From contig CP126191.1 in NCBI GenBank assembly GCA_030272155.1, forward strand, positions 9,818,501 to 9,882,500: a stretch of 64,000 nt of DNA. The letters run 5' to 3'. The DNA is from Tetradesmus obliquus. Its lineage: Eukaryota; Chlorophyta; Chlorophyceae; Sphaeropleales; Scenedesmaceae. Each line of letters opens with the position of its first letter. The stretch's first letter is position 1. Both the position numbers and the translations under genes were made by a program. The notes beneath the pieces are model-generated. The model was not told the DNA's origin, did not search any database, and worked only from the letters and a program-made list of their open reading frames with translations. Below, in pieces: positions 3,000-63,999 of this stretch.

Positions 3000-5900
3000 T
3001 TCAACGACTGCAGGTCAAGGCGCGCGAGCTGTTTGCGATGGCAGTGAAACAGGGCCACTTCCGCAATGAGCGGCTGTCGCCTGACGGGCGGCGCGGCGAG
3101 CTCAACCTGCACGCGCTCACTGCAGGCGTGGCCATGCTCAGCCTGCACGGCTGGCTGGCAGACATCCAGTGAGTGTTTGTAAACAGGGAGGTTGCAGAGT
3201 TCTTAGCATGTAAAGCAGATGACAGCACAAGAGGATGTGGCGCTGCTTGTGTATAGGTGTGGCTCTTGCAGGCTGACGTGCTTCTGTACAAGTTCAGCGA
3301 TCAGCAGGCATAACGAAGCATGGTCATCAGGCATGTAGGAACATAAGCGGCATGCGCAGCACTGCAGGCGGGATAGTCTGCGGGCTGCAGGCGCAAGCTG
3401 CAACAGTTGCTGTTGCGCAGCTCCTCACGCGGTGCTGCTGCTATACCTGCGGCCTGCTGCTCTTGCCTCTGCGGTCTCCTCTCCTCCGCCACCGCCAGGC
3501 ACAAGGTGGCCAGGCGTTGTTAGGCATGTGAACATAGGAAGCACGCTCAGCACTGCTGGCTGCAGGCACAACTTGCAACCTATGCTGCTGTGCAGCTCCT
3601 CACGCCGTGCTGCTGCCATGCCTGCTGCTCACTCCTCTCCTCCCATCCTCCGCCACCGCCAGGCACAAGGTGGCGACCTGCGGCGACAGCGCGCTGCCAC
3701 CGCTGCTGGCCGTGGTGACTGACGCCGGCACCGCCAGCAAGGAGCAGGGCAACTTCATCATCAAGGAGGCAGTCAGCACACTGATGAGCTTCTGGGGCGC
3801 GCCCTTCAGGTGGGCTGCAGCTGTGTAATGTGGTTTGCTGCAGTTGGAGTTGGTGCATGGTTGCTGCAGCAGCGGAGCCTGTGGGCCTGCTGCTGCATGA
3901 TTTTGGGCTGCGGAAGTCGCAGCTGCAGGGCCAAGCATGGCAGCATGGCCGTGCTGCGCTGTGTTGGACCTTAGGTGGCGTCTGGACTCGCACTGCGCTC
4001 GTTTCCTGGATACACATCCGCTGCTGCTGCTGCACCTCTGTGCGTCTGTCTCCCGCTATGCATTCCTCTGCATCCGCAGGGCGGTGCAGGACCGCACCTA
4101 CCTGGGTGTGCTGGAGGCCCCGGGCCCTCAGCTGGCCGCCTGGGTGCGCAGCGCGGCCTTTTCCGCGCAGATGGCCTCACTCTTCCCGGGCGGCACCGCC
4201 GCCGAGCAGCCGCCAGCCTCCTGCGAGACCCTCACGCAGCAGCAATGCGGCGAGGCGTTTGGCGCGGTGCAGCGCTTTGAGGCGAGCCACAACCTGGTGC
4301 TGCAGAACATGGGTTTGGCGTATCTGCAGCAGCGCACGGGGCTGATCAGCGGGCTGCTGGAGAAGGGTGCGGCGCTGGGGCTGAAGGATGAGGTGGTGCA
4401 TGACGGCGTGCTGCTGCTGGACCGCACCGCCAGCGCCGCGACGCAGGTGAGGGCAAAAAACAAGGCCGCATGCTTGCAGGGGCGTTTTGTGTGGCATGTT
4501 TCCCAGCGATTTATCAATCAAGTGTGGCACCAGCAGCAGGCGTGGCTTGCAATGCTGCTGGCAGCCCGTCCACTCGCATGTTCAGGGCCCCTCGCTGTAA
4601 CACACCACGCACTCACGTTGTGCGCCTGATGCGTCCGCGCTGCCCGCAGGTCTCGCAGGAGGTGCTGCCGCTAGTGGCGTGTGCTGCGCTGCAGCTGGCC
4701 ATGGCGCAGGGCGCCTCGCCAGACAGCCCCGCGCCCAGTGCGGCGCAGCTGGCGGAGGTGGCTGGCGTGGAGGCTCAGAGCCTGCTGGACATGAGCTGGC
4801 GGCTGCAGCAGCTGCTGCACGACGACACGCTGGCGATCAGCGCGATGCGCTGCCTCAAGGTGTACCTGGAGCGCATCGGCTACAGGTGCGGTTGGTTGCG
4901 GACATTTTGACTGTGGGCTGCTGGTGTCTGCGGCTTTGCTGAGGGGAGGTAGTGGCATTGCAGGCTTGCATGGCAGAGTGGGCTTGCTGCTGGCACTCTG
5001 TGCTTGCTGCTGTGCAGAGGGCGCCTCTCTTGGCAGCTTGCTGTCGACATGGCGTCATGTGCGCTTGAGTGACGCACCGCAGCGCTGCTGGGAGCTCCTG
5101 CTGACTGTCCTGGTGCTGCTGCTGCTGCTGCTGCTGCTGCCGCAGGCACCTGGACCGCCAGGGCATCTACATCATGGCAGGCCTGCCCATCATGCTGGCG
5201 GTGGAGGCCATGTTTGACATGTCGCTGCTCAACTGCCGCCCCAGCATCGTCGCGGCGGCGCTGCTGTATGCGGAGCGGCGCCACCGCGGCGCGGTGCCGT
5301 TCTGGCCCTCCACACTCGCCAAGATGACTGGCTATGAAGACCTGACAACGCCGGAGCTGTCCTGTGCGGTACGCGCCGCGCAGAAGCTGTGCCGCAAGGT
5401 GCTGTACCCGCAGATCTACAAGCAGCAGTGCACCAACCTGGCGGCGCAGCTGCAGCAGCAGCAGCAGCAGCAGGTTGTGCAGATGCAGGGGCAGATGCCG
5501 AGCAGCAGCGCAGCAGCTGCAGCGCCGCCTGTGATGGGCCGCGTCTACAGCAACGGCGGCGCGGCGGCTGGCATGAACAGCGGCATGCACAGCGGCCTCC
5601 TGGTGCTGTCTGGCATGCAGCTGCAGCAGGTGCCCAGCCTGCAGCAGCAGCAGCAGCAGGGTGCGGGTGTGGTTGTCACGGCCGGCGTGAATGCTGGCAA
5701 CAGCAGCGCAGGCCATCCTGGGCAGCTGGTGCATGCGATGAGTGGAGGCCTGGGCGGGCTGGGCGTGAGCGTGCCGAGTATGATGGGCACGCATGGCTCG
5801 ATCGACTATGCACTGTTGGGCCAGCTGGAGCTGCAGCAGCAGCAGCAGCAGCAGCAGATGATGGGCAGCCTGCCGATGGCGAGCAGCCTCTCAGGCGACC

Positions 5901-6175
5901 TGTCTGCGATGCTGGCTGCCAGCAGGCAGAGCAGCGCGCACACGCCCGGCCTGTGCTCGCCCGCAGCCGCCGGCTCGGCGTTTGCAGCGTCGGCTGGCGC
6001 TGCTGCTGCTGCTGCTGCAGCAGCCGGCGGCGGCGGCGGCTTTGGCGGCGTGGGTGTGGCGGAGCCGGCCGGGCTGCGTGATGCGGGGCTGGAGAGCATT
6101 GCGATGTCGCTGTCGCTGCTGGGCATCAACGTCCCGATTGATGCTGCGTCGCTGGATGCCGCGCTGTCGCGCTGA
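441..6175 (+). CDS. PPR-SMR-cyclin fusion protein
   Basis: Eight exons: 441-1349, 1928-2297, 2482-2711, 3014-3168, 3663-3809, 4080-4446, 4650-4885, 5146-6175. All introns are GT-AG, phases match, and the product is 1147 aa. About nine PPR motifs of 35 residues run from about residue 204 to 505 (typical piece VVTYNTLIDVYGKLGQWDRA). An SMR-like segment follows (about 520-603; LNLHA at 533-537, TDAG at 574-577), then a cyclin-like fold (about 604-890, including LLDRTAS and a C-terminal lobe with PSIVAAALLYAERRH), then a Gln/Ala/Gly-rich tail. PPR repeats bind RNA, usually in chloroplasts or mitochondria. Green-algal PPR-SMR-cyclins are a described family, so the order seen here fits it. Targeting is not obvious from the N terminus. 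The start is the first ATG of the long open exon. The exact RNA target is unknown. Confidence 0.88.
3329..3675 (+). repeat. Tandem duplication of intron 4 end plus exon 5 start
   Basis: Two diverged copies, about 3329-3510 and 3522-3675, share the segments around AGGCATGT, CAGCACTG, CAGCTCCTCACG and the acceptor CCACCGCCAG followed by GCACAAGGTGGC. The functional acceptor ends at 3662 and the decoy at 3498, 164 bp upstream. The decoy keeps its AG and about 14 bp of exon 5 sequence. Only the downstream copy continues into full exon 5. Confidence 0.8.
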
Positions 6176-10379: not shown

Positions 10380-10414
<35 letters not shown>

Positions 10415-16045: not shown

Positions 16046-16428
16046 TCAATACCAGCTAGAGCTGCTGTGGTTGTTGGACAGCGTGTGCATGCTCAGCTGC
16101 TGGCCGGCGAGTGCTGCAGCCGGCGGTGCATCTGGGCCAAACAGCTGCTGCAAGCCAGTCAGCGACTGCTGCAGCTGCATGAACTCGGCATGCAGCGCGC
16201 TGATCCGGCTGCGCAGCTGCGCATTCGGCGCTGCACCGGCAGCAGCAGCAGTAGCAAAGGGCAGGGCAGGCATGCCTGCTGCACCAATGCCCGCAGGTGC
16301 GCCCTGCAGCAGCTGCTGCTGTGCTGCCAGGTCAGCTGAGCCAACCCAAGCCAGCTGGCCATTGCTCAGCAGGCCTGCAGCTGCTAGCTCTGCTTCGATC
16401 AAGGCTTCAATCTCCAGCTCCGTCAGGC

Positions 16429-16466
<38 letters not shown>

Positions 16467-16799
16467 CCATCAACATTGTTGTCATCGTCTGCTGCTGCTG
16501 CTGCTGCATCCGCAGCTGCTGGCTGCTGCTTGCAGCAAGGCGCAGAGGCAGCAGCAGGCAGCACACTGCCAATCTCCTGCTGCACCAGTGCACTCAGCAT
16601 GCACGGGGCAGCAGCAGCAGCTGCAGCTGCAGCAGGAGCAGCTGTCAGCTGCGTCACTGCAGCCCAGGCATCATCCAATGTTGCACAGTCACCAGCACGC
16701 ACGCTCTGTGGACTGGCAGCGCCGCCTGCTGCTGCTGCTGCTGTGCAGCCAGACTCGTCAGAGCAGCCTGCAAATCCTTGCAGCACGTGGTCAGCACAA

Positions 16800-16840
<41 letters not shown>

Positions 16841-17242
16841 GTCATAGTCCATCTCGTCTGCAGCCACAGGCACCAGCTGCGCCGCGTACTGCTGCTGCTG
16901 CTGCTGCTGCCGCCGCTGCTGCCGGTACATTGCCTTGTCTGCATTGGCCTTGCGCTTCACCAGGCTGGCGCGGCAGCTGCGCTTGGTGCCCTCAAACCTG
17001 GCAGCGCAGCAGTTTTGCAGCAGCCAGTGCACACACAATGTGTGAGTTGATGTAAGCTGGCGAGGCATGTTGCTGCGTGTGGTGCAGTGATGTGCAAGTT
17101 TGATTGCAATGGTGGTAGCTTTTGGCTACATCATGCAAGCTTGCTCTTAACAATTGCAGGCACGGGAGAATGATACAGCTGTCCTGCAAGCAACTGTTCT
17201 GGCTGGTTTGTGCAAGACGGCGTGCTGGGCTGGGCTGGGTTG

Positions 17243-17291
<49 letters not shown>

Positions 17292-18377
17292 CACCTGTGC
17301 AGCTGCTCCAGCTTACCACACTGCTGACTGCAGGCACAAATGATACATAACGCAGCATGCATGTTAGACGTGTTCAGCACCTATTTGTGGGCTACTTCCT
17401 TGCAAGGTGTCAAGCCGCCTCTTCATCCGCTGCTTAATGTGTGGATCATATGCGAGCAGCACAGTTGAGGAGTTACTGCTGCTATTACTGGCAGCCACAT
17501 CATAACTGTACTAGGCGAAACACAATGCACACATGGACAAGCACACATGGACAAGCACACATGGACATGCTACAGTTGGGACCTCCTGCAGCAAATCCCA
17601 GATGCGTTCCTTTACATCCACGCACCAGTAGCGCCACATCCCTGGACCACATTCAGGGGCCTCGATGGCATCAGCCTGCAGGCATTGCACGCCGCAACCA
17701 CTTCAGCGCTGACGCACACAAGCCTGGATAAGGTTTCAGCGCAAGTGTGAGCTGTGCTGTATGGAACGCAAAAGTGCCTGCGGCGGGTATTTCACTACTG
17801 CAGAGGCTTGGGGCAGGCCCCCTGCAAGCCTTTTCAAGGCGCATTGCTGACTCATCAATTAAATAGATGTATCTGTGGCAGCTTGTTTTGCCTTATGAAT
17901 CGGCATACCTTCATGTGTGCCTCGCACAGGCGCTTCTTGCGGCAGTAGCTGCCTCCCAGATCCTGCACTGTACAGCCCAATGCCTGCAGCACATGCAGCA
18001 CATGGCAGGCAGCATGTCAATTAGCAGCACAGCACACATGCAGGCTAGCACCAGACTGATAAGCAGTCACAGGACCGGTCAAACATGCACTCGTACATGG
18101 CTGTGCGTCTGATAGTTGGTAGTGGTGCGGTTCCCTGACATCTGTGAGAACTGAAAGTGTGCCAGCCCTGGATGGCCTCGCTGGAGCAAGGCTCTGCATG
18201 CGCTGCACACGCCGTGCGCGATTAAAATGCTTTAATTAACATGTTCAATATAATTTATTCAGTGCGTGCGGGATAGAGCGCTCACCCTGCATCGCTTTGC
18301 CTTCCTGAGGGCACTGGTTGCTGCCTGCTGCTCTACACCAGAGCACGGCAAGTGCCCCTCTGCTGACACGCCGAAAC
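16046..18377 (-). CDS. SBP-box (SQUAMOSA promoter-binding-like) transcription factor, 5' end unresolved
   Basis: Exons on the minus strand: 18377-18286, 17983-17909, 17675-17626, 17327-17295, 16997-16046. Phases match and give 399 residues plus stop. The first four exons and the start of the fifth build an SBP zinc-finger domain. The first Zn site is CRALGC plus LCEAH; the second is YCQQC, the His of QLHRF and the Cys of KRSC. It ends in the basic nuclear-localisation segment KRSCRASLVKRK. SBP proteins bind GTAC-core DNA in plants and algae. The rest is low complexity: poly-Gln, poly-Ala, and an acidic stretch with 12 consecutive Asp that may act as an activation region. No ankyrin repeats are present. 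The start codon exon (phase 1 end) was not found; it should lie between 18378 and about 19700. Confidence 0.85.
16430..16468 (-). repeat. (ATC)n array encoding an Asp tract
   Basis: An almost pure trinucleotide array in the last SBP exon. On the coding strand it reads GAT repeats, giving 12 consecutive Asp followed by GLTELEIEALIEAELA. Length polymorphism would change protein charge without a frameshift. Confidence 0.9.
16801..16839. repeat. (CTG)n array in the SBP coding exon
   Basis: Pure CTG repeat of about 13 units, read as poly-Ala on the coding strand of the SBP gene. Confidence 0.9.
17250..17288. repeat. (CAG)n array next to an SBP donor site
   Basis: About 13 CAG units on the plus strand, so CTG in the sense of the SBP gene, starting a few bases inside the intron after the 33-nt exon. 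Confidence 0.9.
17527..17570. repeat. Three tandem copies of a 14-bp unit
   Basis: The unit GCACACATGGACAA occurs three times in succession in the SBP intron between the 50-nt and 33-nt exons. No function is evident. Confidence 0.85.
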
Positions 18378-19775
18378 CTGCACAGCATTAAAGTAGGAAC
18401 TTGATCGGCCAGTGAGCGGCGCGCCCCTTGCACTAATCGGGGGGGTGTCACTAGACCTAGCGAAGGCACCCAGTTCTCCCACCCACAAAAGCGTAGTTTC
18501 AGCACGTCAAACCATCACATCCAAGACGTGTTGTAAATATCTTTGTTCGAAGACCGTTATAGCTCGCTCCACGACCGAGACCTGCAAACTCAGCTGCTCC
18601 CGTGGGACACGGTCCAACCCCAAACAACAGAGGCTTTGAGCTTACCGTGGCTTATACACATCCCAGTTGTTCTGAAGCAGCGGCAAAACAACGGACGCTG
18701 TCAAAGTACTGCTGGCTCTTAAGACACGCCCCTAGCTCAACCCTGATTCAAATCAACCGATCCAGATAAAAAAGGTTTGTTGTGCGAAAGAATGTCGAGC
18801 GTGGGTGTCTGTGTGCGCGACACTCTTCTTGTGTTGTCTGATATGGCGGGCTACAACCAATTAGAGCAGACTGTTTCACGCAAGCAATATGAACACAAAT
18901 TAATGACCACTCAGCCGGTCGAGGCTCATGACCTCGGAGTAGATAGCGCATGTGTACCAATTGCGCTTTGAACATGTTATTATTAGCCCAACGTGGGTGA
19001 CGCACATCTGGCATCATTGCTTCGCATATCCGGCTGTACTGACAGACTTTCAGAGCAAATGTCAAGTTATTTTACCGACTTGTGAGCCCGTAGACCGCTG
19101 CGGCACAATTTCACAGTCGGAGGCAATAGATTTGTGCTCGTTACAGCGTGTGGACACCAGCATTTCCGCACGGCGTGAAATCAAAATAGTAAAAAGCTTC
19201 TCAGCTATCAAGGTATCGGCACGATTTAGTGCAGCTGCCTGTAACCACCACTGCCCTGTGGTCACTCTGCTTACTTTGGTGGAGGTTGACGCTCAGTATT
19301 TGATCATGATTTGGTGGTCCAGCTCAGCTTACTAATCAACTGTGGACTTCACGCACAGCAATGCACCGAACGACTACTACACTTCAGTTAGCTGACAGCA
19401 TGCTTTGCAAAGCCAAGTTCAACATCAGGACTTGGCAGTGCTGCTTGCAACATCGGAGGAGAGGAGGCTACGCGGGTATGCGGACACTGCCATAGCTCTC
19501 TGAACGTTGTGGCACGAGGCAGTGTATGAGGCCTCCTCACAGTTTTATGTGTTGATGTTTAGCAGCTTTTGAGTGTACTGCCCTCAAGCAGTCGCTTGCC
19601 AGGGTCAGTCGACCACACATGCAGTACATGACTCAGTGAGATGTCCTTCACCAGCAAGCTTGCCTTTACTTGATGTTTTGTGCTTGTAGTTGTCCCGGAT
19701 TTGCCGTCCTCGCTTATCATGGGCCAACAGCAGCACGATTGCAAGCAACCCATATGCACTGCAACAGCAACACCT
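18378..19775. other. Divergent 5' region between SBP and the membrane-protein gene
   Basis: About 1.4 kb with lower GC, no CAG/CTG arrays and only short unconvincing ORFs. It should contain the missing first exon or exons and the promoter of the SBP gene on the minus strand. The change of base composition relative to the genes fits a regulatory or 5'-UTR region. No specific motif is claimed. Confidence 0.4.
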
Positions 19776-26058: not shown

Positions 26059-26808
26059 TCAATCCTCCAAACTTCCTCTTTTCACTACATAGGGAACAGT
26101 TCTCTCCCTTTCTGCACACCTGCAGTGAGGCGTCGGCTCAAAGCGGCCCTGCTGCGCCATGCTGTCAAACAGGCGCGTCCTGAACAGGCCTGCTGGGTCG
26201 TGCTGCCTGCTGAGGGCCAGCAGCTGGCCAAACCTGGGGTACAGGGGCGCCACGGGGCACTTGGGGTGCGTGAAGGTGCGGTCAAAGTTCTTGCCCTGCA
26301 GCAATCAGTAACAGCGCAACAGGGGTTGAGTCATGCTTGCAGCAGCTTGATATCTGCGCACTTGGGGTGCGTGAAGGTGCGGTCAAAGTTCTTGCCCTGC
26401 AGCATGCATTGACAGTGCAGCAGGGTTAGGCTACAGCTTGCAGCATCTCAATATGTGCGCACTTGGGGTGCGTGAAGGTGCGGTCATGGTTCTTGCCCTG
26501 TTAAAAATTTCAACGCGCAGGGGTGTGGCGGCAGCAGCAGGAGCACGGGGACAGTTGAGGCTCGGCCATTGAACACGATGTCGAGTGCCAGGGGTGGCTG
26601 GTGTTGCAGTCAACGCTCTTGCCTTGAAGGGGGCAGTGGCAGCGCAACAATGTTGCCGCCACTTCAAGCGTCAAGGAGGGAGGAGCAACCGTGTTGGGTG
26701 CAGTGGTAGGCTCATGCCCAGGTATGGCAGGTCAGCTTGACGTGTGCATGTGCATGTTACGCAGGTGATGCTTCATAGCAAAGCAGGAGCAATAATGAGC
26801 AGCAGCAG

Positions 26809-26843: not shown

Positions 26844-29091
26844 GCAGCCATGCCCCGTGCACTCACCCAGTGCGGCCTGCCCTTGTACTTGCACAGCGTG
26901 AACTCCTCCACCAGGTCCAGCACAAACTGGTACCTGCAGCAACGACGCAGCAGCAGCAGCAGCAGCAGCACTGAGTATCAGCAGCAGCAACAACCAACAG
27001 CTGCATTGTGGTTCAATTGCATGTCGTGCTTGCTAGCATGGATTTCCCCCACGCTAGCACGCTGTCCATGCACGTAAGGCTTGACAGGGTTGTATGGGCA
27101 TGTCGATGTGCCCTTGCCAATGCCACCTACCAATGTGCTTGGCATGGGTGTCTTCAAGGGGTTCAGTTCAGGGTTCAGGTTAAAAGTAACACCCCATTCA
27201 ACCCTGCTGATCTGCTCACCTCATCGAGTACTCGGGTGCCAGGCGTGAGCGCATCCAGGTGGACTGCACATACACCGGGCGGCTCAGGCCGCTGGTGGTG
27301 GCGGTCATGCCGTCAGAGCCGTTGCCAAAGCGAATCCTGCACGACAGCAGCAGCAGCAGCAGCAGCATGAACACGGAAAGTCAGCGCAGCAGGGTCACCA
27401 CATGTATCCCAGGCCCAGGCAGCGCTAGCTGGCACTGCCACGGTCACGCAGTGGTACAGGTGTACAAACCGGAACGGTTGAACCCTTGCAGGAATAGCCA
27501 AAACCAAAAACACAAGTATGAATCGCTCACCACATGTACCCCAGGCCCAGGCAGCGGTAGCTGGCATTGCCACAATCATGCAGTGGTACTGTTGTACAAA
27601 CCTAAACCGTTGAACCCTGGCAGGAACCCTAGCCGAATCCAGAAACACAAGCATTAATCGCTCACCACATGTACCCCAGGCCTAGGCAGCGGTAGCTGGC
27701 ATTGCCCCCTTCCTTGAGCTCCCTATCAAATGCAGCCTTGACGTCAGCAATCCAGTCGGCCAGCTGCGCAAACTCAATCGTGAACTCAGCGTCCTGTCAA
27801 GACAGCACAGAGCGCAGCACAGCAACAAACAGTTCAGGGTGCGCTGATTATGCACGGCGTGCGCCTGCATGGCTACCAGACACTGCCGACTACTTGCCAA
27901 CAACTGCTGCAACATTGTCAACATGTCGGTGGGTGCCTTATAATTCTTGCTGCAAGCAGTGCTGTTCAGGCGCTCAGTTGGTTCTGCTGACTCTGCTATG
28001 ATACGTGCTGCAGAACAAAATGTTTACGCCACGCAGCAGCTGCCCGCACCTGTGCTGTGCCGTTGAACACGCGGTGCTCGTTCCAAGTGCAGTGCTCATC
28101 ACACTCTGCAGAGGTCAAACTGCATGGCAGGGCACATATAACAGCACATACAATAGCAGCAGCAAAAAGCTTAGTGAACGACATCGCTGTGTTTCAATTG
28201 CACCAAGCAGGATCTGCAGCACCTGCCACCTGAAATGCACTGCTCAAACCGCAACGCATGTAGTGCATGCAGCAGCAGACGGCGGCCGCCGCCAGGCTGG
28301 CTGCTGCATCTTGCCTTGCCACAGCAGCAACAGCAGTACGGCAGTGGTGCGCTTGCATGCCATGACACTCAGCATCAAACACCTTGCCGCAAGCTTTGCA
28401 GCGGCTGCAAGCGTGCCATCCTTTACTTTCTGTTACGCATCAGCTAACACGCTTGTAAATCACCCACTTGTTGGTTGGCCCAGTCACGTTAGCCACCCGC
28501 TGCCTGTTGACAGACCCCCAGGCCGACGAAATGGACCCATCAGCCTGCAGCGCAGATGAGCAAGCACCAGTATCAGCACGCAGTCGCCAAACTGGTGTAT
28601 AGGTCATGCCAAGCAGCTCAAATCAGGAAGCTTTGCTCGCTATGTTGACTCTCAATGCCAACTTGCCGACTGCCTACCAGCCTGCTGTACACTGCTGGCC
28701 TGGGTAGGCTGCATCATCATTGGTACTTACCACTAGCGGGCAGACCAGGTTAGACATGATGCTGTCATCGTTGAGGCCGCTGTGCCAGATGTTGAACATA
28801 CCAGCCATAGGAGCCTGCAGCAGCAGCAGCATTGCAGAAAGGCGAGCTCAGCAACTGTCCCTTTCTCATGCGGCTAGCGTGCAGTGCGGACTTCTTGCCA
28901 ATCACCCATTCCGCCGCTGCTTGCCAGGCAGCATGACAATTTTCGCCGCAATCGTGTGTTGGCATGTGCTGCGTTGCTGCAGTGCAGCAAGCAAGCACGT
29001 GCTTCTGTGCATCAGTTGGCCAGTCAAACAGCATGCGATCCTGTGCTGTGCAAGCGGCTTTGTGAACAGGCTGAGCTGCTGCCGCCGCTGC

Positions 29092-34870: not shown

Positions 34871-37800
34871 TCAGGGCGCAATGAAGTCCAGGCCCTCCGC
34901 CTCGGCTGCAGCCTGCAGCGCCAGCGAGGACGTAGCCAGTGGCATGAACATGCTCCAGATGTCAGTCACCACACTGCTATCACAGCAGTCCAGCTGGCCC
35001 ACAACCTCAGAGTGCACCTGGGAGCTGCTGCTGCTGCCGCTGCTGCAGGTGCTGCTGGCGCTGCTGCGCCGCTTGACCAGCCTGCTGCCGTTGCTAGCAG
35101 CGGCGCTGCTGACCGTCTGTGCTGAGTCAGGGGTACCTGGCTGCTCATGCTGCTGCTGCTGCTGCTGCTGGGATGCTGCTCCGTCACGAGCAGCCTGCTC
35201 GCCTGCTGCTGCAGCAGCTGCTGCCACTGCCGCCGCAGCAGACGCCACTGCTTGCTGGTGCGCACGGCTGGCCCTGCTGCTGCTGCCACTGCCTGCAGCG
35301 CTGCAGCCACCCCCAGAGCAGCTAGCAGGGAAGTCTGACACGCTGTCAGCGATGTCGTTACGTCCCCAGGAAGTAACACGCGGCGGCCTGTCATCCGGCA
35401 TACCTTCGTGGATTGTTGGCGGTACCGACAGCGCTGCTGCACTGCCGCCGCCGCTGCCTACGCTGCTCACAAAGCCAGAGCTGCCTGGGCTGCCAACCAC
35501 AAACCCTGAACCGCTGCTGCCGCTGCTGCCATACGCCGAACCTGCCAGCGGCGCATGCAGCGCACTGGCAGCACTCGCGTGTGCAGCTACTGCTGCTGCA
35601 GCTGCCTGCGCATGCGCGGATGCTACTGCCGGGCTGCCGTGCTGCTGCAGGTGCGCTGAATGCAGCGCTGCGGCCGTGTAGCTATAGCCACGGTGCGTGC
35701 CTCCCATGTTGGCGCCATCTGCCATTGCTGCAATGGCATCCGACACGGTCGCAGGCACACCACCATACAGCCCGGCCGGCACACCTGCAGCAGACCCTGC
35801 TGCTGCTGCTGCCGCTGCTACTGCATCGCCCTTGTGCACGGCGCCCCCCACGCCGGCCGATCCCAGCAGCGCAGACGCAGACAGCGCCGCATTGCCTCCT
35901 GCAAAGTACCACGCGCCGCCCGGCCCCACTGCTGAAGGGCTCGTCCCTGCGGAGCCCTGCTGCTGCTTCGCCTGCTGCTGTGCCTGCAGCAGCGCGGGCA
36001 GGTGCCCGCTGCTGCCATTGAGCAGCGCCTGGCTGCTCTTGCTGCGGTGCCACAGCCGGCCGCCTGGGCTGGCTCCTGCATCCAGCGGGTTGCCCCAGCT
36101 GGCCACGGCCTGCTGCCCAACAGCTGGCATGCTCAGCCAGCTCGGGATGCGAGAAGTCAAGCCCGTGAGCGGCCGCTCGCGGGCCTTGTTCGTCAGCCGA
36201 GCCAGGCACGCGTCGAGCGTGGCCTCGATCGTGCAGTTGGTTTCGATCGCGGAGAGCTTCTCCCAGATTGCGAGCTCGCCCTGTTTGGTGGCCGCAAGGA
36301 TGTCGAGCGTGGTGGGGTTGACCATGGTCTTGCCCAGGTTCCACAGGTGGCTGGGCAACACCACGGTGATGTCCCCCTCCCAGGGCTGCGTGAACAGCGT
36401 GAGCCACTTGGTGGGGAACCAGTCCGGCAAGATGCACTGCATCTGCGCACACCTGCAGGCAGCCACGCAGCGCCACACACCACAACGCGATCGTCGGACA
36501 ATGGACGGCAGGAGAGCAAAGCAGTGCAAGCAGGACCGCTAGCCTGCCAGCAAGCCCACATCTTTCCCACCATGAACTACAAACCATGAACTACAAACAT
36601 TGACACAAGAACATCAAACATGGACACAACCCAAACTCTGGCACCCACCTGTGCCGCAGCTGCAGCTCTAGCAGGTCCGCCCACAAGCCCACATCCCCTC
36701 CACCCTGAATCAGTAGAACATCATCAAACACGTACAAACCCCCAGGCTGGCACCCACCTGTGCCGCAGCTCCAGCTCCAGCAGGTTGGCCCAGCGCCTGC
36801 TGAGGCTCTTCTTCAGGTTGAGCAGCGGCGCAATGTGCGGGTTGGTCTGGCTCACAATGAAGTGGTTGCAGTTGAACATCTCGCTCAGCAGAAAGGTGGG
36901 CAGGTCAAGCTCCAGGGAGCCGTCTCGCCAGCGCCGCGACACGTTGTCTGACAGCGACGGCGCGTTGAACCTGCGGCACATCAAACCAGCGACGCAGCAC
37001 GCACTTGGATTTTAGCCGTGTGACATGAAAACAGGATTGATGGCTGAGCATCCCTGCTAGCAAGACAGCACTACAGTCACCTCCCAGCATGAACAGCAAC
37101 TAGAGGCCGTAAGCAAGTAACAGCAAGCCAGCCAACAGCGCCCCCACCCTCGGCCCCCGCCAAGCAAGGCTCACCTGACCTCCTCGCCGCGCGCATTGCG
37201 CGCCAGCAGGTCCTGAGGGTGGAACAGCCCGGGGAAGGCGCTGCTGGCCGCAACAGCAGACCAGATCAGCGCCTGGACAGGTGGCAGCAGCAGCAGCGGC
37301 AGCAGCGGCAGCAGAACGGCGGTCACATGCGGAAGCTTCAACAGCACAGCAGCGCAGGCAAGCTGATTGCTTCCTCTGTGCCACTCATGCTAACAGCCCG
37401 GCCGACTCTTGCATCAAGATACGTGCTGATGCTGACCTGTTGAGGCTTATAAACAGCAGAAACATCAACACACCACCACACCTGTGGCGCAGTGAGGTAG
37501 TTGAGCAGGCGGGCCGGCTCATTTGTGTCCGCAGGGCACACGCTGACGTTGAGGATGCGCCCGGTGCGCTCGTAGGCCTCCAGGAAGGTGTAGTTGCCAA
37601 TAAGCGCCTTCAGCTTGCGCTGCAAGGGGTGAGCGGGAAGGTGAGGCCAGGTGCAGCACGTGAGGGCTAGAGCAACGCCAGAGGCAGCAGGTGTGCTGTC
37701 AACAAGCAGATGGCTGTGCTGGCAGCAGCCCAGCTTGCATGCAGGGGATATATGCTACATGCGCAAGTTGCAGTGCTACATGCGCAAGTTGCAGGAAACC

Positions 37801-40460
37801 AGCGCAATCAACCCATCACGTGCAACTGCTGTTTCCAAGTCACACTGCACTGTCACATCACCTGCAAATGAAACAAATGTCAGCACATCAAACACACTCA
37901 TCCGTGCCGTCGCAACGCCGCCCAGCAGTCCCCCGCCGCACCTGCAGGTAGCTCATGTCGTGAACGCGATGCATCACATGCAAATGCTGTTTCTACGTCA
38001 CACTGTTACGCCACATCACCCGCAGACAAAACACATGCAACGCAACAGGCACGACCATGCCACCAGCCCATTGCCGCACCTGCAGGTAGCTCATGTCGTG
38101 CAGCGCGCCCTTCTGCAGAAAGCTGTGCACCAGCTCCAGCGCGCGGCTGTTGTTGAAGAAGGACAGCTCCACCTCGTCCAGCTTGCGGAACGTCTCGCGA
38201 AGCTCGTCGTCGGTGCGCGTGCCAACAATGCCCGCAACGATGCTGCCCACGCTGCTGCCGGCTAGCACACGGGGCAGCATGGTGTGCTCAAACAGCGCCT
38301 TGACCACGCCCTGCATGGCATGAACGTGAGTTGGGGCAGGGCAGCAGCCATCGGCAGCAGAGAGTGAGCAAGTTGTAAGGCAAATAATTGTGTGCTGCGG
38401 CAAGAGCTCATGGACGCAGACAATCCCAAGCATCCCAAGCAGCGCACATGTTACCCCGCGCTTCAAACAAATGCCGTATCATTCATCCAGAAGGGTCTGT
38501 GTACTGGCAGGGGCACAAGCCATTGCTGCTCTTGCTGCTGGCTGCGCTAGCTGCTTGCTCCTTCAGCCAAAACCAACCAGCCACCCACCAGGTGGAAGCT
38601 GCCTAGGCCGCCGCCGCCAGACAGCAGCAGCGCGGTGCGGCCGTACGCGTGGCGCGTCTCCTTGAAGAAGCTCAGCTTCTCCTCCACGTCGATGCCTGCC
38701 TCAGGCCACTCGGTGAGCTGCGCCAGCTGCGCCTTCACCTCCTGGATGTAGCCACGGATGGGCGCCGGCAGCTCGTAGTAGTGCTCGTGCAGCTGGCTGC
38801 AGGGGTGCAAGATGCGGTTGCAAGAAACATGGCAGCGGAGAAGGGGTGCGGTCAGATTAAGCGTAGTAGTGCTCGTGCAGCTGGCTGCGGAGGCAGAGGT
38901 GCGGTTGCAGGGGCAGGGGTGCAGCAGCATGCGGTGCAGCACAGTCAGAGCATGTGGTGGTCAGCAGCAGTAACAGTGCTCGTGCAGTTGGCTGCGGGGG
39001 CAACGGGCAGGGAGCTTGCCAATGGCAGCGGAGAAGGGGTGCGGTCACATTAAGCGCAGTGCAGCCGGAGCGGCAGTGCTGCTAGTGCTGGTGCTGTCAG
39101 GAGCTGCTGCTGCGGTGCCTCAGGATGCTTTCCTTGCTGCCATTGGCAAGCTTTGCTCCACAGCTGGGCTGCTCATCAACTGCTGCACGAGCTGCTTCTC
39201 AAGGCATTTGCTGCCCGGTTGCATATTACCCTGGCAGCACTAACACAAGGGTGTCATGCATAGGCTAGGCTGTGCTGCAACTGCTGGGCATGCACAGCTC
39301 ACGCTTGCTGCAAGCCGCCTGTGACTGCTAGCACTGCCTGGCTACACACGGCTGTAACACTGCGCTGAGCCAACTGAGAGGGTCCAGCACGAGCTGGTGT
39401 TGCTGTCGTCCAACACTGTTATGTCAGTCCCGCATGCTGCGCTGCGGTACCAGCGGTTCTGCAGCAGTACCGCTGCAGTACCACTGCTGACTCTCCTGCT
39501 CTACCAGCTGCTGCTGCAAATGGCCACCACCGCTGCTCCTGTCATCATGCCTGCTAACAATTCCTCTCACCTTTTGGCAACATTGGCGATGTTGCGTATG
39601 AGGTCTGTGCGCAGCGCAAACATCATATCCCGCCCGTTGCCGTGCTCCCGTACGCTCTGCAGGTGAGCAAGCTTCTGCTGCAGCAGCTTGCGGTCGTACA
39701 GGTTCTCCCGGATCTTGCCGCTGACGTCGCCGCCCCTGCAGTGCCCCATTGCGTCCAGCTGCTGAGCAAACTCGCGCCACTCGCTGTAGCTGCTGGCTGC
39801 TGCCATGCGCGCCTGGATGGCGCGGATCTGGCGCAGCCGCTCATCGCACGACTCTTGCCAGCGGCGCACCAGCGAGTTGACCAGCGAGGCAGTCATGGCC
39901 ATGGCTGCAGGAGAGCATCAGGATGTTTGCAGGACAGCAGTGTGAGGTAGGGTGGGATAGGGTATGCTTGGTGCAGCAGCGAGCGGCTGCTGCAGGTCCA
40001 AAGATTGCTGGCTGCCTGTGATAGAACCTGCATGCGTTGCAGAGGGCTGCCAGAATGCAAGGAGCACCCTCACAGTCTCCTTACCTATGACCACATGCCA
40101 TTTCCGCACATCCAGGGGTACATAGGACCACCTGCGTATCCATCGCGCCCTAGACTGGCTGAAGGCAGGTGCTCCCAGCCAGCCCACAAGCCGCAGCACT
40201 AGAGTCTGGCTAAACGATGTGAGCTTCAAGAACGATCGCCCTGTCCATATGTAGAGCGCTAATACGCGTGCAACAGGAGCCGAAAGTGTACCGAGAGCTC
40301 TCCACACTGCCAAGAAAGTAAGCTGTGTAAAGAAGCTCACAAGCTTGTCTGCATTGTTTTTGCTACTTCCTGGCCCACGAACGTACTTGCTGCTGCGAAA
40401 TTGCACACCCCCTCTTGGGGCTGCGCACAGGCTCGCAGGTGGCTTGCTGGCTACTTTCAT
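34871..40460 (-). CDS. SDP1-like patatin-domain triacylglycerol lipase
   Basis: Eight exons: 40460-40085, 39904-39571, 38796-38589, 38310-38080, 37619-37482, 37272-37175, 36970-36758, 36452-34871; phases match, 1059 aa. The N-terminal region (about 35-100) has hydrophobic stretches like the conserved SDP1 N-terminal domain. The patatin core has the oxyanion Gly-rich loop GGGGLG (297-302), the nucleophile elbow GSSVG (324-328, Ser326) and the Asp of the dyad in [11 protein letters not shown] (Asp478). The order is typical of plant SUGAR-DEPENDENT1 lipases, which hydrolyse triacylglycerol at lipid droplets. The long last exon adds a low-complexity Ala/Ser/Gln tail of about 420 residues ending in GLDFIAP. 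Three introns hold duplicated exon edges. Confidence 0.92.
36641..36790 (-). repeat. Duplicated exon 7 end and donor in the SDP1-like gene
   Basis: The block CACCCACCTGTGCCGCAGCT occurs at 36642 and 36751 (109 bp apart), followed by similar sequence. The functional exon end is 36758; the equivalent decoy position is 36649. The decoy keeps the GTGGGTG donor. Confidence 0.85.
37820..38110 (-). repeat. Duplicated exon 4 end and donor in the SDP1-like gene
   Basis: The block CCGCACCTGCAGGTAGCTCA plus TGTCGTG occurs at about 37936 and 38074, 138 bp apart, with related flanks (the TCACACTG...CACATCACC segment is also doubled). The functional exon end is 38080 and the decoy is 37942. The decoy retains about 20 bp of coding sequence (DMSYLQ) and the GTGCGG donor. 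A separate 20-bp direct repeat (TACATGCGCAAGTTGCAG) lies at about 37752-37790. Confidence 0.85.
38770..39000 (-). repeat. Exon 3 start and acceptor in three tandem copies, SDP1-like gene
   Basis: The block GTGCTCGTGCAGCTGGCTGC recurs at 38781, about 38869 and, with one change, about 38976. The functional exon start is 38796; equivalent decoy positions are 38884 and 38991. Decoys keep the CAG acceptor and the first codons (QLHEHYY). GCGGTTGCA and GAGAAGGGGTGCGGTC segments are also repeated. Confidence 0.85.
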
Positions 40461-53614: not shown

Positions 53615-55022
53615 ACGCTCTGGTGCCAGGGATGGCGACAGCAGCGAGCAGTGGGAGGATGATGGTGACGATGCCACGTCAGCAAAAAGTGCCCACAGCG
53701 ACCTGCAGGGCATGTACATGTCGCTAGGTGAGCTGCATACACATGCAATTGTTGAGTGTGCTATGTGACAGACCTCTATGTGGCCTTAGAATTTGTCAGA
53801 GTCAGTTTTGTAGGATTCAAAAAGTGACACAGCTACCTGCAGGGCATGTACATGTCACCAGGTGAGTTTCATGCACATGCAATTGTTGCGTGTGCTATGT
53901 GACAGACCTCTATGTGGCCTTAATGTTAGTAAGAGTCAGTTTTCTAGGATGAAAGAATGCACACAGCGGCCTGCTGGGCATGTACATGTCACTAGGTGAG
54001 CTGGCTGTGCTTGCGTGGGCTATGTGCTTTGAGAGAGGGAAGTTACATGTGGGTCCGATGTGCTTTGTGTCACAAATTGTGTTGTGTGGGGTGGTGCCTG
54101 CTCTCTGTGTGGTACCAAGAGCGCAGGCAGGCCAGCGTGCAGAGCTACCATGCATGTGTGTCTACGTGTGCGCGCTGACATTGCTGGGCCTTTGCTGTTG
54201 GGATGCCCGTGCGGATGCGCATGCAGCAGTGTGTGTGTGGCCTCAGCGTACGTAGTGCCACCCCTCACCTGTCTGCGTCCATGCTGCTTCATGCCAGTAG
54301 TGCCTGCTGCACCGCTACGCCCTGCCTCACCTGACTTCTCCCCCCTTGCAGAATCGGAGTTTACAGAGCGCAGCAACAGCAGCCAGCAGCTGCACGACCC
54401 GCTCTCGCGCTGGTTTGCGTGCCACTATGCGCTGCTGGCGCAGCAAGGCAAGCTGGCAGCAGCAGGCGGCCTCGCTATAACTGGCTTTGGCAGCAGCAGC
54501 CTCCCTAGCGGCCTCACCGCAAACCTGGAATCTGGCAGTCTGCCTGCTGGCTTTATGTTAGACCCTATGAGTAAGGGCATCCAGCACGTGTCCGTGCTGC
54601 AGCAGCAGGCCAGAGATATCCTGCAGGCGCTGCCAGCGCCAGCTGCTGCAGCGGTGGCCGCTGCTGCCGGCGTGTCGGGTGCGCGGCTGCTAGCAGCAGA
54701 GGATGATGGGGGCGAAGCAGTTGATGGGCTTCTCGCCCCCTCTGCTGCTGCTGCTGCTGCCGGTTATGATGCTGTGTTTGAGCAGCAAGCAGCGGCAGAT
54801 GAGGAGCGGTCAGCGCATGCTGCTGCTGGCGCTGCTGCTGCTGCAGCAGGCAGCAAGCGGCCAGCACAGCAAGGCGGGTTCTCTGAGCCGGCAGCCAAGC
54901 GCAGCAAAGCAGCTCGGCCGCCACCTCAGCAGCCATCTCAATCGCATTCTCATTCTCAAGACACACAGCAGCGCAAGCAGCAGCAGCAGTCGCAGTCGCA
55001 GGACGGAGGTCAAGCACCCCGC

Positions 55023-55056
<34 letters not shown>

Positions 55057-58771: not shown

Positions 58772-58802
<31 letters not shown>

Positions 58803-59236
58803 GCCATCAGGAGCAGTCAGCAATGGACTGCCGTAGCAGCAGCAACACAGCACCAGGATGGTCCTTAGACTGCTGCAGCTTGATGACACATGTCCCCAAC
58901 CACCACAACAGCAAGGCCAGGATGGTCTCAGACTACTGCAGCACCTGCAATCCAATCCCACCTTTTTGTACTCTAACCACACACTTGAAGCGTGACACTT
59001 ACACTTATCTGCGCAGCTACAAACGCTACTCCTACTGACCCAGCCACTCACTGCAGCATCATGGCCAGGATGGTCTTGGCCTCCAGCAGCGCAAACTGCG
59101 CGCCAATGCAGTTGCGCGGCCCGCGGCTGAAGGGCATGTAGGAGTAAGGGGGCACGCGCTGCGCTAATCCGCCCTCCTCCAGCCAGCGCTCGGGCCTGAA
59201 GTCTGCTGCATCTGGGCCCCACACCTGTGCAAAATT

Positions 59237-59277
<41 letters not shown>

Positions 59278-62200
59278 CTGTGGTCAGAGTGTGCAGATTT
59301 GAGCAGTGCCGCCCTCCTCCAACCAGCGCTCCGGCCTGAAGTCTGCTGCATCCTGGCCCCACACCTACGCAAAGTTGCAGCAGCAGAAGAATTGTTTTGC
59401 AACCACAGCGAGACTTCAAGCAGCAGTGCACCAGCACGACCGATGACCCTGAGGATTGCTGCGGCCGGGCGCCACACCCGCACCAAACTGCGGGAACACC
59501 AGCAAGGCTAGCTGTCAGGCTGCCATCAACATGGCACCAACATACACGTCTGCCTAGCAGCTGCATTACACACAGCAGCCATCTGTCAGCAGCACAGCCA
59601 CACACGCGTACACACGACTTCAATCAGCTGCTGTCACCAGAGCTCCCAAATCAGTGCAGCGTTACGCTCACCTGCGTGTCCATGTGCTGCACGTAGGGTG
59701 AGACCAGCAGCACCTTGCTGCTGGTGTCATATCCAGCCAGGCTGCTGCCCTCAGGGCCCCAGCGGGCCAGCAGCCCCACCGGCGGCCGCACACGCAGCGA
59801 CTCCTGCACATGCATTTAATTTCAAAAAAACCTGATGGATTTTGAGATTTACCATATGTTACATGACATGTTATTGCTGTGCCGCGCTACTGCATGCGTG
59901 TCATATGCACTTGATGTGCCGAGTGTCCAGCGATGGTAATAGCAACCATTGAACACCAATGAACAAGAGAATGCAACATGCAGCGAAGCTGCTGCAGGCA
60001 TGCCATAGGGTTTCCTTTCGATGCAATTCCGCCACCGCGAATGGCAAGCGTTGCAATTGCAATCAAGATTCGATCGTGGATATCTCACAATTTACTGGGC
60101 GCCTGGCCGCGAAACTGAAGGAACAAAGGTATTAGAACATGTAGAACCCGAATCCGGGCATTTTTCGGGCTCGCAGAGGGTGTTTACCCCTAGATCTCTC
60201 AATATTCTATTTATCGTTGCATCGTGGTTGCATTTTCATTGCATGCTCATTGCATCCATGCTGTGGCGGACTTGCATCGAAAGGAAACCCTATGCACAGC
60301 ATCTGCAGCAGCAGCAGCAGCAGCAGCAGCAGCTGCAGCCCACCTTGAGCACTGCATTGAGGTAGCGCATCTCGCTCAGCTGCTGGTAGCTGGGCTGGCT
60401 GCTGCTGCCCAGCACTGCTGCCACCTCGGCAGCCAGCCGTCGCTCCACCTCCGGGTGCTGGCACAAGTACCACATCGTCCAGCCCCTGCAACACATTGTG
60501 TTATAACATGTTGTGACAAACAAGTGTCATAACGCAGTAAAACAACAGCATTGCGGCGCAAACTGTCTTCAGAGGTTGCCAGAAGCCACATGTCACCACC
60601 GTTGTCGCACGCAACCAAGCGGCCACAATGCGTGCTGCATGCGCGCCAGCAGTGATGCAATGCGTGTGGGCTGCAGACAGGCTGATGCAGCAGCCGATGC
60701 TGCATGCTGCTCTGCCAACGTCTGCATCAAGCCAAACACAGGAGTTCAAATATCCTGCAAGTTGGCGAAATCATGCAGTAAGGGGGAAACACTCACAACA
60801 GGCCTGCAGTTGTGTCGTGTCCTGCAGCAAAGAACGTCTTCATCTGACTGCAGGGGCAGCACGGCAGATGCAAGCAGCAGCAGACCATCAACAGTCAGCG
60901 GATAGCAGTAGCAGCAACCAAACTGCTCGCATCATCAATACCAGCAGCCAGCCCAGGCTGCTTATTGACAACCCATGCTTCGCATACGGCATCCTGAAGC
61001 AGTCGATATTCAGCTGCTGCATATTCCAGGCAGCAGTTCAAACTTCTCACAGCCAGCACCGAGCAAGCAGTAGCCAAATTGTCAGAAGCAATATACATCT
61101 GCATACATGCCAAACAACAGGCAGAACAAACCGACCTGAGCAGCATCTCAAGGTCAAGGCTGCCATCCACGCTCTCCTTCTGGCACAGCTTCACAGCAAG
61201 CATCAGGATGTCCTTGCTGTCTAGCATCATCTGCTCAGTGGCAGCACTGGCCTCGCCGCCAGTGCCAGTATCCCCGAACGGACACTCGGCATCACCGCTG
61301 CTGCTGCTGCTGCTGCTGCCGCTTGCAGCACTGCTGCTGCTGCTGCTGCTGCTGGTGAGTGTGGTGCGCTGTGCTGTGTCAGGAGCAGCAGCTGCAGAGA
61401 CGGCTGCAGCCACGCCAGGAAACGGACACTTGGCTGCACTGCTGCTGCTGCTGCTGCTAGCGCCTGTGCCAGCGCTGCTTGCAACGCTGCCGCCAACCAC
61501 GTCAGTGCCTGCCAGCGCTGCTGCCGCCTGCCGGTCAACGCTGATGCCCATCTCCTGCAGCCGTTTGACCAGGATGGCCATGAGCTGGCTGTCCAGCTGC
61601 TGCTGCATGCGCTGCGTCTTGCTCACATTCCAGGGTAGGTCCTTCATCCAGTTGAGGGGCACATTGTCTGGCAGCAACCGAACACGCCAGCAAGAAAGCA
61701 CATCAGGTGGCGCACTCACAGAATCAACAGGCGGCACAGGAAACGTACAACACGAGAGTGTGAAGATGCAGCTACCAGGTGTGGCTGGGGCTGACGTCGC
61801 TACCCGCATGCATGCGGCACCAGCGCCACTCAGCATGCACGCTGCGACACCCCCCTAGATGAGGCTCAGCTGCAGCACTAGAGGCCATTGCTTGATGCCG
61901 CTGCTGCCGCTGCTGCCGCCTGCTGCTGCCAGCCCTCACCCAGGAACCACGCCACGTGTCGGCCCAGGCCCTCGAATGCTGTCCATAGCGGGCCGCTCCT
62001 GCCTGCTGACAGGAAGTCGATGTCCTCACCAAAGCCAACCTGCAGCAAGGCAGGGCAGCAGTCAGCAAGCAAGCATACACAGCAGCGCATGTGTACGCGC
62101 TAACATGACTGGACATACCATGTGCCACAGCCCGCCTGCGAGCAGGGCAGCAATGCACAAGGAGACACAACAGCACATGTCTGACGGCAACATGCGTAGA

Positions 62201-63999
62201 CGCAACACATAAATGACGCTGTAAAAAGCATAGATGTGCTGTGATGTTTGAGGAGCGCCGATCCAGCAATCCCAGCAACAGCCAGCGACTCGGCAGCAAC
62301 TAACATGTGATAGGAAAGCATGCAGAATAATCCATTGTGAAGTGCTCAGCCTTGTGGCGCTTGCCTTGCAGATAACCTCAAGCGTGGTCAGCACTGTCAA
62401 GTGATGCAGCTGCACCACCTCCCGCGACTCAGCCGCAGCCTCCAGCCTCTCCACCAGGTGCTCAGTGCAGCTGATAAACCCCGGCAGCGCGGTTTTGAGG
62501 AAGCTGCTGCTGAACCCTGGGTTGAAGGCGTCGCGCTGTGCCTTCCAAGTGTGGCCTTCAGACATGACCATGGATTGGCTGCCCAGCACGGGCAGCAGAT
62601 CCTTATAGCGGGGAGACTTGTGGTACTGCAGCACTTCATACACCTGTGGAAGGGGCAAAAAGAGAAAGGCATCATGAGCATCATGACCATGGATTGGCTG
62701 CCCAGCAAGGGCAGCAGGTCCTTAAAGCGGGGAGACTTGTGGTACCGCATCACTTCATACACCTGTGAAAGGGGCAAAAAAAGAAAGGCAACATGAGCGT
62801 CATGGCCATGGATTGGCTGCCCAGTACGGGCAGCAGGTCCTTGTAGCGGGGAGACTTGTGGTACTGCAGCACCTCGTACACCTGCAGAGGAAGCAATACA
62901 GTGTATGGCAACATGAAATGTGGCGAGTTTGAGAAGTATGGCCGCAAGACTGCTGATTGGCAGTAGCTGCTTGGACCAGCTCAGCAGCGTGCGGCACGCC
63001 AGCAGGTGCTGTAGCACATCTGCTTCCCATTACACACCCCGTGCTGCTGCTGATACTGAGCCAAGACTAGGTGACACATGTCGTCCTCTGCTGCTGCTGA
63101 CGCTAAGCCAAGCGAGGGCACATTCCCAGTGATACACAGTCAACTGTGTGTCAAGTGCGCTTGCCCCATGTGCCCCGCAAAGCCCTGAAGCTCATTAGCA
63201 GCGTTCCGACACCCCTGCAGCTCCGCCTGCATGTCCCAACGTGCACCAGCATACCGCCCCTGTCCTGTCAACACCAAAAAGGCTTTAGTAGCAAAAAGGC
63301 GATAGATGCCATCGCTGCTGCTGCTGTCCCCCGCTGCCTCACCTCTCGAATCGCCTCGGGGTCTGCCACCACCATCACTGGCGGGCTGCCCGGCACTTGA
63401 AATTCAAAGAAAGGGCCGTGCTGCTGCCGCCACTGCAGCAGCAACCGCTCCAGGTCACCCTGTGTGGCCAGGTAGGCGGTCATGCTGGCGCTGTGCATGA
63501 GCCCTGGCAGCTCAGGGGGCCGCGGCGGCTTGCAGGACACATATGGCAGGCAGCAGCAGATGTGGTTTGGATGTGGACACAGGTGTGAAGAACATATAGT
63601 AGTGTCACCATGGTGTGGGGTGCGGCCGCGCAGTGACGCAGTGGATTGGCGGTGTCAGCAGGGATGCCATTGCGTAAAGCGTGGGTTGGGCTGTCCTTGC
63701 AGCAGGCCTGGCAGGCTGACAGGATAGACACTGCTGAATGGCAGGCAATGAGATGCTGGAGCATGCAGGTGCTGCAGTGATTGTAGTGCCTATGATTGTG
63801 TAAAACTAGACTGATACGATGTTGCAAGCTATTACAGAAGCCGCAGCAAAGGAGTGTGGTCTTGGCTAACCTGCTTGCCCTTGGGCCTGCTGGGCTGAGG
63901 TGGACTGGTGCTGCCCGATGCTGCTCCAGCTACTGCATGCACCCTCAGAATGCCCCTGACAGTGCTTCTGTGACTCCTCGGCGCTGCATGGCTGCCCAT
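58604..63999 (-). CDS. Cytochrome P450 monooxygenase
   Basis: Ten exons: 63999-63871, 63528-63343, 62643-62365, 62039-61940, 61667-61136, 60847-60797, 60485-60344, 59803-59672, 59224-59052, 58751-58604; phases match, 623 aa if the ATG at 63999 is the start. All hallmark motifs are present: I-helix AGHDTT (417-422), ExxR as ESLR (474-477), PERW (528-531) and heme loop [10 protein letters not shown] with ligand Cys556. The first 43 residues are basic and Ser/Ala-rich, like a chloroplast transit peptide, but the gene touches the window edge and may start further upstream. An Ala/Ser-rich insertion (about 279-375) makes it longer than usual P450s. Exon 3 appears to end in a GC donor. The heme-domain pattern suggests a clan-4-like enzyme; substrate unknown. 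Confidence 0.9.
59160..59385 (-). repeat. Duplicated exon 9 start and acceptor in the P450 gene
   Basis: The block CCTGAAGTCTGCTGCATC plus GGCCCCACACCT occurs in functional exon 9 (start 59224) and again 140 bp away in the intron (equivalent start 59364). The decoy holds about 65 bp of exon 9 sequence and keeps an AG acceptor. Confidence 0.9.
59237..59276. repeat. (CAG)n array between the two P450 exon 9 copies
   Basis: About 13 CAG units on plus (CTG in gene sense) in the polypyrimidine-like position upstream of the exon 9 acceptor. Confidence 0.9.
60004..60294. mobile_element. MITE-like inverted-repeat element in a P450 intron
   Basis: 32-bp inverted repeats with one mismatch (ends CATAGGGTTTCCTTTCGATG) at 60004-60035 and 60263-60294 bound a 291-bp segment in the intron between exons 7 and 8. 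A weaker inverted match continues outward into CTGCTGCAG sequence on both sides, so the true borders may be wider. The interior is less GC-rich than the gene and has no ORF of note. No clear target-site duplication was found. Confidence 0.55.
62560..62890 (-). repeat. Exon 3 start and acceptor in three tandem copies, P450 gene
   Basis: Copies with the acceptor and the first 27 codons of exon 3 (coding [18 protein letters not shown] and on) start at 62643 (functional), 62762 and 62881, spaced 119 bp. All three have an intact AG acceptor. The two upstream copies lack the rest of the exon and any good donor, so splicing to them would shift or end the frame. Confidence 0.92.

Follow-up and report, generated by a model that had tools for sequence, protein, structure and literature searches.

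Why should introns in several unrelated genes contain extra copies of the exon edges that flank them? The question is raised by a 64,000-nucleotide stretch of the Tetradesmus obliquus genome (bases 9,818,501–9,882,500 of contig C1; hereafter the window), in which an initial annotation described nine introns of five genes that hold one or two additional copies of a neighbouring exon edge together with its splice site. It attributed these copies to a recurrent, genome-wide duplication process that lengthens introns and creates redundant splice sites, possibly feeding alternative splicing. We report here that such arrays occur across the genome, that their units are of narrow size and that the extra copies (decoys) differ from the real edges, and from each other, in the pattern that neutral relics would show. 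We propose that the probable explanation is frequent, genome-wide tandem duplication of segments of about 125 bp, tolerated both in introns and across splice sites, and followed by decay and some re-expansion.

Results

The genome comprises 104.7 Mb in 17 contigs. The window was analysed together with 240 kb sampled outside it, consisting of ten 20-kb blocks (at 2.0 Mb of C1–C10) plus one 10-kb stretch at 1.5 Mb of each of C11, C13, C15 and C17, to give a combined set of 304 kb from 14 of the 17 contigs, to which the counts below refer. A GC content of 58% and intron-rich genes fit a scenedesmacean green alga; for Tetradesmus obliquus itself, a published comparison gives 57% GC, introns averaging 462 bp in length and 7.8 of them per gene (PMC5966456). 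Genes were predicted with a hidden Markov gene finder self-trained on the 304 kb with the splice profile initially fixed and repeats masked, after an earlier model had collapsed onto CAG repeats. The models contain 50 genes and 460 introns, with a median intron of 230 bp and a mean of 283 bp that is shorter than the published one, and half of the introns fall within about 130–340 bp. Their splice profiles are near CAG/GTG.G on the donor side and T.GCAG/G on the acceptor side (the stroke marks the junction), and hand-trimmed stretches of five predicted products (PPR, oxidoreductase, SDP1-like, dehydrogenase E1 and ABC transporter) all match Pfam families.

Exon-edge copies recur across the genome

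Introns of at least 120 bp provided 726 exon edges. Testing was confined to 480 of them, those with 36 nt or more of exon and few simple repeats. A copy was called where the outer 36 nt of the exon edge recurred at 70% identity or more inside its own adjacent intron. By this measure 43 of the 480 edges possess a copy (24/245 acceptors and 19/235 donors), 4/75 in the window and 39/405 outside it. None of the 480 matched an intron taken from another gene at the same threshold, and copies were found for 2/253 stretches of exon sequence taken 60 nt further in and for 11/401 intron-internal 36-mers. Repeat segments numbered 307 in the real DNA and 0 in one order-5 Markov resample; with the absence of matches to another gene's intron, this excludes a chance origin of the edge copies. 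At least one copy was present at 12 of the 14 loci sampled outside the window, and the recurrent, genome-wide character claimed in the initial annotation is therefore borne out. The P450 gene of the window was missed by the final models, so its events lie outside the 43/480 and just four of the nine window events are counted there. Edge-copy density was 18/72 at the C11, C13, C15 and C17 loci, 21/333 in the C1–C10 blocks and 4/75 in the window; a higher density on smaller chromosomes would rest on four loci, where effects of position or gene are possible.

A second listing, made with the simple-repeat filter off, contains 64 copies at 50 edges. Their median spacing is 124 bp, with 53 of the 64 between 88 and 155 bp. 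Each copy thus adds about 125 bp to its intron and gives rise to extra AG or GT sites, as the initial annotation had held. The duplicated exon part in the 43 hits has a median of 44 nt and a maximum of 93 nt and includes a single splice site. When arrays were collected without regard to edges (repeat spacing 25–1000 bp, simple repeats masked), 79 were found in the 304 kb, and their main offset was 100–160 bp in 46, below 100 bp in six, 160–235 bp in five, 235–300 bp (roughly twice the unit) in 13 and more than 300 bp in nine. The idea that intron lengths are multiples of the unit was dropped, as a check by eye revealed no clear periodicity.

Many units extend into the intron

The intron halves of nearest units, compared at exactly one unit length for the 38 of 50 edges that qualified, were homologous beyond shuffles (z>3) in 27/38. 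Pooled substitution in those 27 units was 0.193 for intron halves against 0.100 for exon halves, close to the ratio of 1.5–2 that, by our own arithmetic, would be expected if only the decoy were free to change in the exon half. Copying of the edge alone, without tandem duplication, had been suggested by intron halves that looked unrelated; it was mostly rejected on the exact-unit-length comparison and may still apply to the 11 of the 38 that lack clear homology. In the window, the splice site lies within the duplicated segment in all nine events.

The donor array of the acidic protein (53684..54003, forward strand; real intron start 53728, decoys at 53862 and 53996, offsets 134 and 268) holds two spacers between its copies that are alike (86 identical of 101 columns), and the sequence beyond its outermost decoy is no better than control (z=1.0). 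From alike inner spacers and an unlike outer flank, we read this array as an old duplication with a later gain of a unit. By eye, the three-copy window arrays at 26257–26500, 53684–54003 and 62563–62896 each show three exon parts and only two similar spacers, and in each the homology of the outermost copy ends near its splice site; a two-step origin would account for three exon parts with two spacers. Six copies are present at an ABC-transporter edge outside the window (L018:152–912), all reading YGKPNASDEEVIAAS with synonymous differences when inspected by eye, and among them copy 2 pairs with copy 5 and copy 4 with copy 6, as though two-unit blocks had been duplicated.

Decoys change as neutral relics would

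In 47 intact copies, differences between real edge and decoy number 39, 51 and 112 at codon positions 1, 2 and 3, 98 of these 202 (0.485) being synonymous, with five stops in 540 codons. Differences between decoys are spread evenly (19, 22 and 18), with a synonymous share (16/59) at the neutral value of 0.276 and three stops in 148 codons. The contrast between the two patterns (P=0.001) means that the third-position bias stems from the real exon. We calculate that a neutral decoy next to a constrained exon should give a synonymous share of about 0.43, with which 0.485 is compatible (P=0.12). Splice dinucleotides were retained in 47/61 copies, against 46.6 (sd 3.2) predicted by the letters of the adjoining exon; this count leaves out three of the 64 copies, whose real site is GC, and AG or GT stands at the matching place in 47/64. 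Intact decoy sites score below real ones (5.98 vs 6.93, P=0.025), and multiples of three are not enriched among the 64 spacings (14/64; P=0.06, deficit or excess). These results match what would be expected of neutral relics, and they do not support the suggestion that the decoys are kept for a purpose.

Three lines of inquiry were set aside. An early, smaller set of 34 events and the six YGKPNASDEEVIAAS copies had pointed to purifying selection on the decoys, a reading rejected because changes between decoys are neutral in the fuller set. Recursive splicing through AG-GT units was discarded on finding by eye that exons start with GT at only five of 24 acceptor edges. A periodicity of mismatches, measured without gene models (z = 4.1 outside the window and -1.4 inside), was superseded by the framed counts.

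Preference for exon–intron boundaries is at most modest

Strong boundary targeting had been suggested by the 43/480 edges set against the controls. Because copies bearing exon sequence remain recognisable for longer, repeats were also called on intron sequence alone (offset 60–400 bp) and then tested for crossing of an exon edge, and this intron-side ascertainment weakened the case. The better-scoring genes contain 437 introns; 308 of at least 150 bp were searched, 23 held a repeat and 13 of the 23 crossed an exon edge at the same offset. Random placement of the observed unit sizes predicts a share of 0.33 (P=0.016), which rises to 0.41 when the edge call's false-positive rate of 11% is added (P=0.09). 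An excess of boundary-spanning over intron-internal duplications, to which the initial annotation tied its proposal, is therefore modest at most. The data point to weak boundary targeting or none, with a modest preference possible and no strong one shown. Rereading by eye, in which four rows called internal became probable edge crossings, would give 17/23 (P=0.0001), a figure that has no matching null and is not used as the main result. One window repeat (25790–26037, offset 134–136), in a predicted oxidoreductase intron, has no clear tie to an exon edge; its edge match was 0.67, just above threshold, and it was counted as edge-crossing.

The nine window arrays

All nine boundary-spanning duplications in five genes were located base by base, and repeat finders agreed. 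The 13 decoys in the window retain AG or GT without exception, and nearest-copy offsets run from 88 to 164 bp. The acceptor array of exon 5 in the PPR gene (PF13041) lies at 3378..3674 on the forward strand, with the real exon start at 3663 and the decoy edge at 3499 (offset 164); the duplication stands, but its exon part is just 12 nt and the remainder is intronic. On the reverse strand, the ALO-type FAD oxidoreductase gene (PF04030) has a donor array at exon 9 (27395..27706; real intron start 27665, decoy donors 27530 and 27398, offsets 135 and 267), where the outer decoy keeps its GT but reads GTGACC against GTGAGC at the real site, as well as the exon 12 array described below. Three arrays, also on the reverse strand, belong to the SDP1-like gene, a name taken from the initial annotation, whose product has a patatin domain (PF01734). 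They are the exon 7 donor (36607..36792; real intron start 36757, decoy 36648, offset 109), the exon 4 donor (37922..38100; real intron start 38079, decoy 37941, offset 138), which adjoins an intronic repeat with pairs at 37814–37879 (offset 158), and the exon 3 acceptor (38774..38900; real exon start 38796, decoy 38884, offset 88, exon part 23 nt), with a further copy of intron sequence near 39022–39060. The P450 gene (PF00067), again on the reverse strand, has acceptor arrays at exon 9 (59169..59389; real exon start 59224, decoy 59364, offset 140), an exon covered by the Pfam match, and at exon 3 (62563..62896; real exon start 62643, decoys 62762 and 62881, offsets 119 and 238, with an exon part of about 80 nt). 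The exon 9 decoy retains its AG, in the form GTAG. Pfam searches covered the PPR, oxidoreductase, SDP1-like and P450 products, each of which matched a family. Elsewhere in the window, a predicted gene at 16046–19014 has the look of an SBP-type zinc finger (labelled by eye) and contains long CAG/CTG and CAT repeats in its coding sequence.

Related introns hold different arrays

The acceptor array of oxidoreductase exon 12 (26257..26500, reverse strand) has its real exon start at 26295 and decoys at 26396 and 26497 (offsets 101 and 202); the exon part is 39 nt, and the nearer decoy is identical across all 39. A degenerate extra copy of this edge, of about 70% identity, lies at 26585..26626 on the same strand (offset 328) and has lost its AG. 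Two paralogues, picked by a DNA search with this array, differ from it. In the C17 gene the copies are spaced 103, 111, 101 and 126 bp (at least three copies) and the exon part is longer; the C9 gene has a single, decayed decoy 103 bp away, which has lost its AG and is 67% like the real edge of that gene, and in addition the start of an earlier exon is copied at 152 bp and a donor-side copy occurs at 117 bp. Copy number and breakpoints thus differ among related introns. Each of the two window decoys most resembles the real edge of its own gene (1.00 and 0.95). This fails on C17, where the nearest decoy is 0.92 like the real edges of the other genes vs 0.85 like its own, probably through later change in the C17 exon. 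The C17 paralogue (L026:1–1500) also contains higher-order repeats of 214 and 227 bp, each roughly two units long, and the 3' end of one exon, with its donor, copied 171 bp upstream of that exon.

Four window arrays were searched against the whole genome. Two matched only themselves, a third matched itself and 50 nt in a C9 paralogue, and the fourth itself and paralogues on C9 and C17. Dispersed near-identical copies of the introner type were not found beyond these paralogues, in a search that scores the best candidates only and skips very common words.

Discussion

We propose that tandem duplication throughout this genome copies adjacent DNA in units of roughly 100–150 bp, perhaps through break repair or slippage. 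As half of the introns are only about 130–340 bp long, units of about 125 bp would often straddle a splice site. Such a duplication would leave the mRNA intact if the copy adjoining the rest of the exon is the one used, and would be tolerated for that reason; the other copy would become intron and decay neutrally. Both copies would then be free to change in the intron halves and the decoy alone in the exon half, so that the exon-bearing part would be recognisable for longer and look special. In some arrays, surviving homology of the exon halves may support the gain of further units, which would refresh the inner copies.

A number of observations weigh against this proposal. Intergenic arrays are few (8/78 by the gene models, two of the eight being the P450 arrays), and random placement alone does not account for their scarcity. 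Under a stricter control, with other introns as comparison and the splice signal removed, clear homology (z>2) was found in only 12/34 intron halves, so that tandem duplication of units seems clear in a third and plausible in most. Some exon halves are conserved beyond what one neutral clock permits: substitutions number 0/36 in the exon half vs 15/67 in the intron half at the S22 donor, 0/39 vs 14/61 at the oxidoreductase exon 12 acceptor, and 2/65 in the exon half of a dehydrogenase-E1 edge whose intron half is without clear homology. The mean identity profile falls abruptly at the splice site, from 0.87–0.91 in the outer 30 exon letters to 0.58–0.61 at intron positions 6–10, in a set that had been selected on exon identity. 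The smaller set of 34 events has a synonymous share of 0.569 and no stops, above the calculated 0.43. Finally, the analysis rests on self-trained, predicted gene models, in which the wrong copy may in places have been taken as the real one.

One alternative is a duplication mechanism tied to exon–intron boundaries, for example to chromatin or transcription structures, that favours edges and copies them over a set distance of about 125 bp. The excess of edge copies over intron-internal ones (odds ratio 3.5, P=0.0001), the tight spacing and the scarcity of intergenic arrays all speak for it, but copies bearing exon diverge about half as fast and stay visible for longer, the intron-side edge share exceeds expectation modestly at most, and units of comparable size occur in some arrays annotated off edges, though these are few and some misannotated; we give it a small chance. 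A related scheme, in which length-measured tandem duplication of about 125 bp prefers the exon–intron boundaries of transcribed genes and continuing conversion with the real exon homogenises the exon halves, is unlikely, if still worth keeping in mind. Another possibility is that selection maintains the decoy edges as alternative or regulatory splice sites. The AG or GT in every window decoy, the strong conservation of some exon halves and the synonymous share of the 34-event set can be read in this way; retention of dinucleotides at the chance rate, neutral change between decoys that includes stops, the paucity of spacings in multiples of three and the lower scores of intact decoy sites all count against it, and make it quite improbable.

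Two further explanations have very little to recommend them. Assembly artefacts might be suspected, as the spacing overlaps with common short-read lengths. Real and decoy sequences differ by about 12% (the 202 differences in 540 codon comparisons), however, the intron halves differ by indels, the third-position bias appears only where the real exon is involved and so needs evolutionary time, and paralogues have distinct arrays of their own; an artefactual origin is scarcely credible. An introner-like mobile element with long target-site duplications, inserting near exon edges, could produce the alike inner spacers and control-level outer flank of the acidic-protein array, but the four searched arrays lack dispersed copies beyond paralogues. 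Target duplications made by transposases are also far shorter than the exon parts duplicated here (median 44, up to 93 nt), and such an element is most improbable. Tandem duplication followed by neutral decay thus remains our preferred account.

In tandem exon duplication, which can yield mutually exclusive exons, a whole exon is copied with both splice sites. The present arrays resemble this in that exon sequence is repeated inside an intron and differ from it in that the copied part is, in most cases, an exon edge and a single splice site; no complete exon was copied in the 43 hits, and one possible whole-exon case, seen by eye, occurs on C17. Tandem duplication of splice-site sequence is a recognised process (PMC3443670, PMC4974935, PMC2891723). 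In the model of intron gain by tandem duplication, duplication of an exonic AGGT creates a new intron (Gao and Lynch, 2009; Hellsten et al., 2011, via PMC3443670, PMC4974935). The present arrays share with it a local tandem duplication within genes that doubles splice-site sequence without necessarily altering the mRNA. They differ in that introns already present seem to have grown and their boundaries to have multiplied, in narrow units of about 125 bp and at high density. The Rogers (1989) model calls for AGGT at both ends of the new intron; by eye, exons begin with GT in five of 24 acceptor-type hits. In potato RdRp, tandem duplication of an intron–exon segment produced a new intron and an added exon (PMC4974935); that duplication likewise took in a 3' splice site already in place, together with the branch region and an exon edge, whereas the copies here appear to have been absorbed into the intron. 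Five probable tandem duplications among conserved Drosophila genes similarly duplicated splice motifs along with exon sequence, but are tied to novel intron positions, and the natural duplications cited in that study have a median of 367 nt (PMC2891723). End joining of staggered breaks is a known route to small local tandem duplications, although the short insertions treated in that work are <100 bp and the units here are 100–150 bp (PMC8355091). A literature search, with subscription journals mostly outside its coverage, found no description of dense arrays of exon edges in green algae. Mutations of this kind are already known, and it is the density and narrow unit size that are apparently unusual, the density being judged from this genome alone.

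The arrays complicate annotation, and in one ABC-transporter model the gene finder took decoys for exons. They also pair constrained with unconstrained copies of one sequence, and the small spread of unit sizes gives a direct way into the mechanism of mutation. Were a boundary-preferring, length-measured mechanism with conversion to prove true, it would constitute a continuing engine of intron lengthening that leaves fossil exon-edge copies in introns. If the sample is typical, about one in 11 testable edges carries a recognisable copy, and the genome would contain natural experiments by the thousand on how splice sites are chosen, how introns grow and how sequence decays neutrally.

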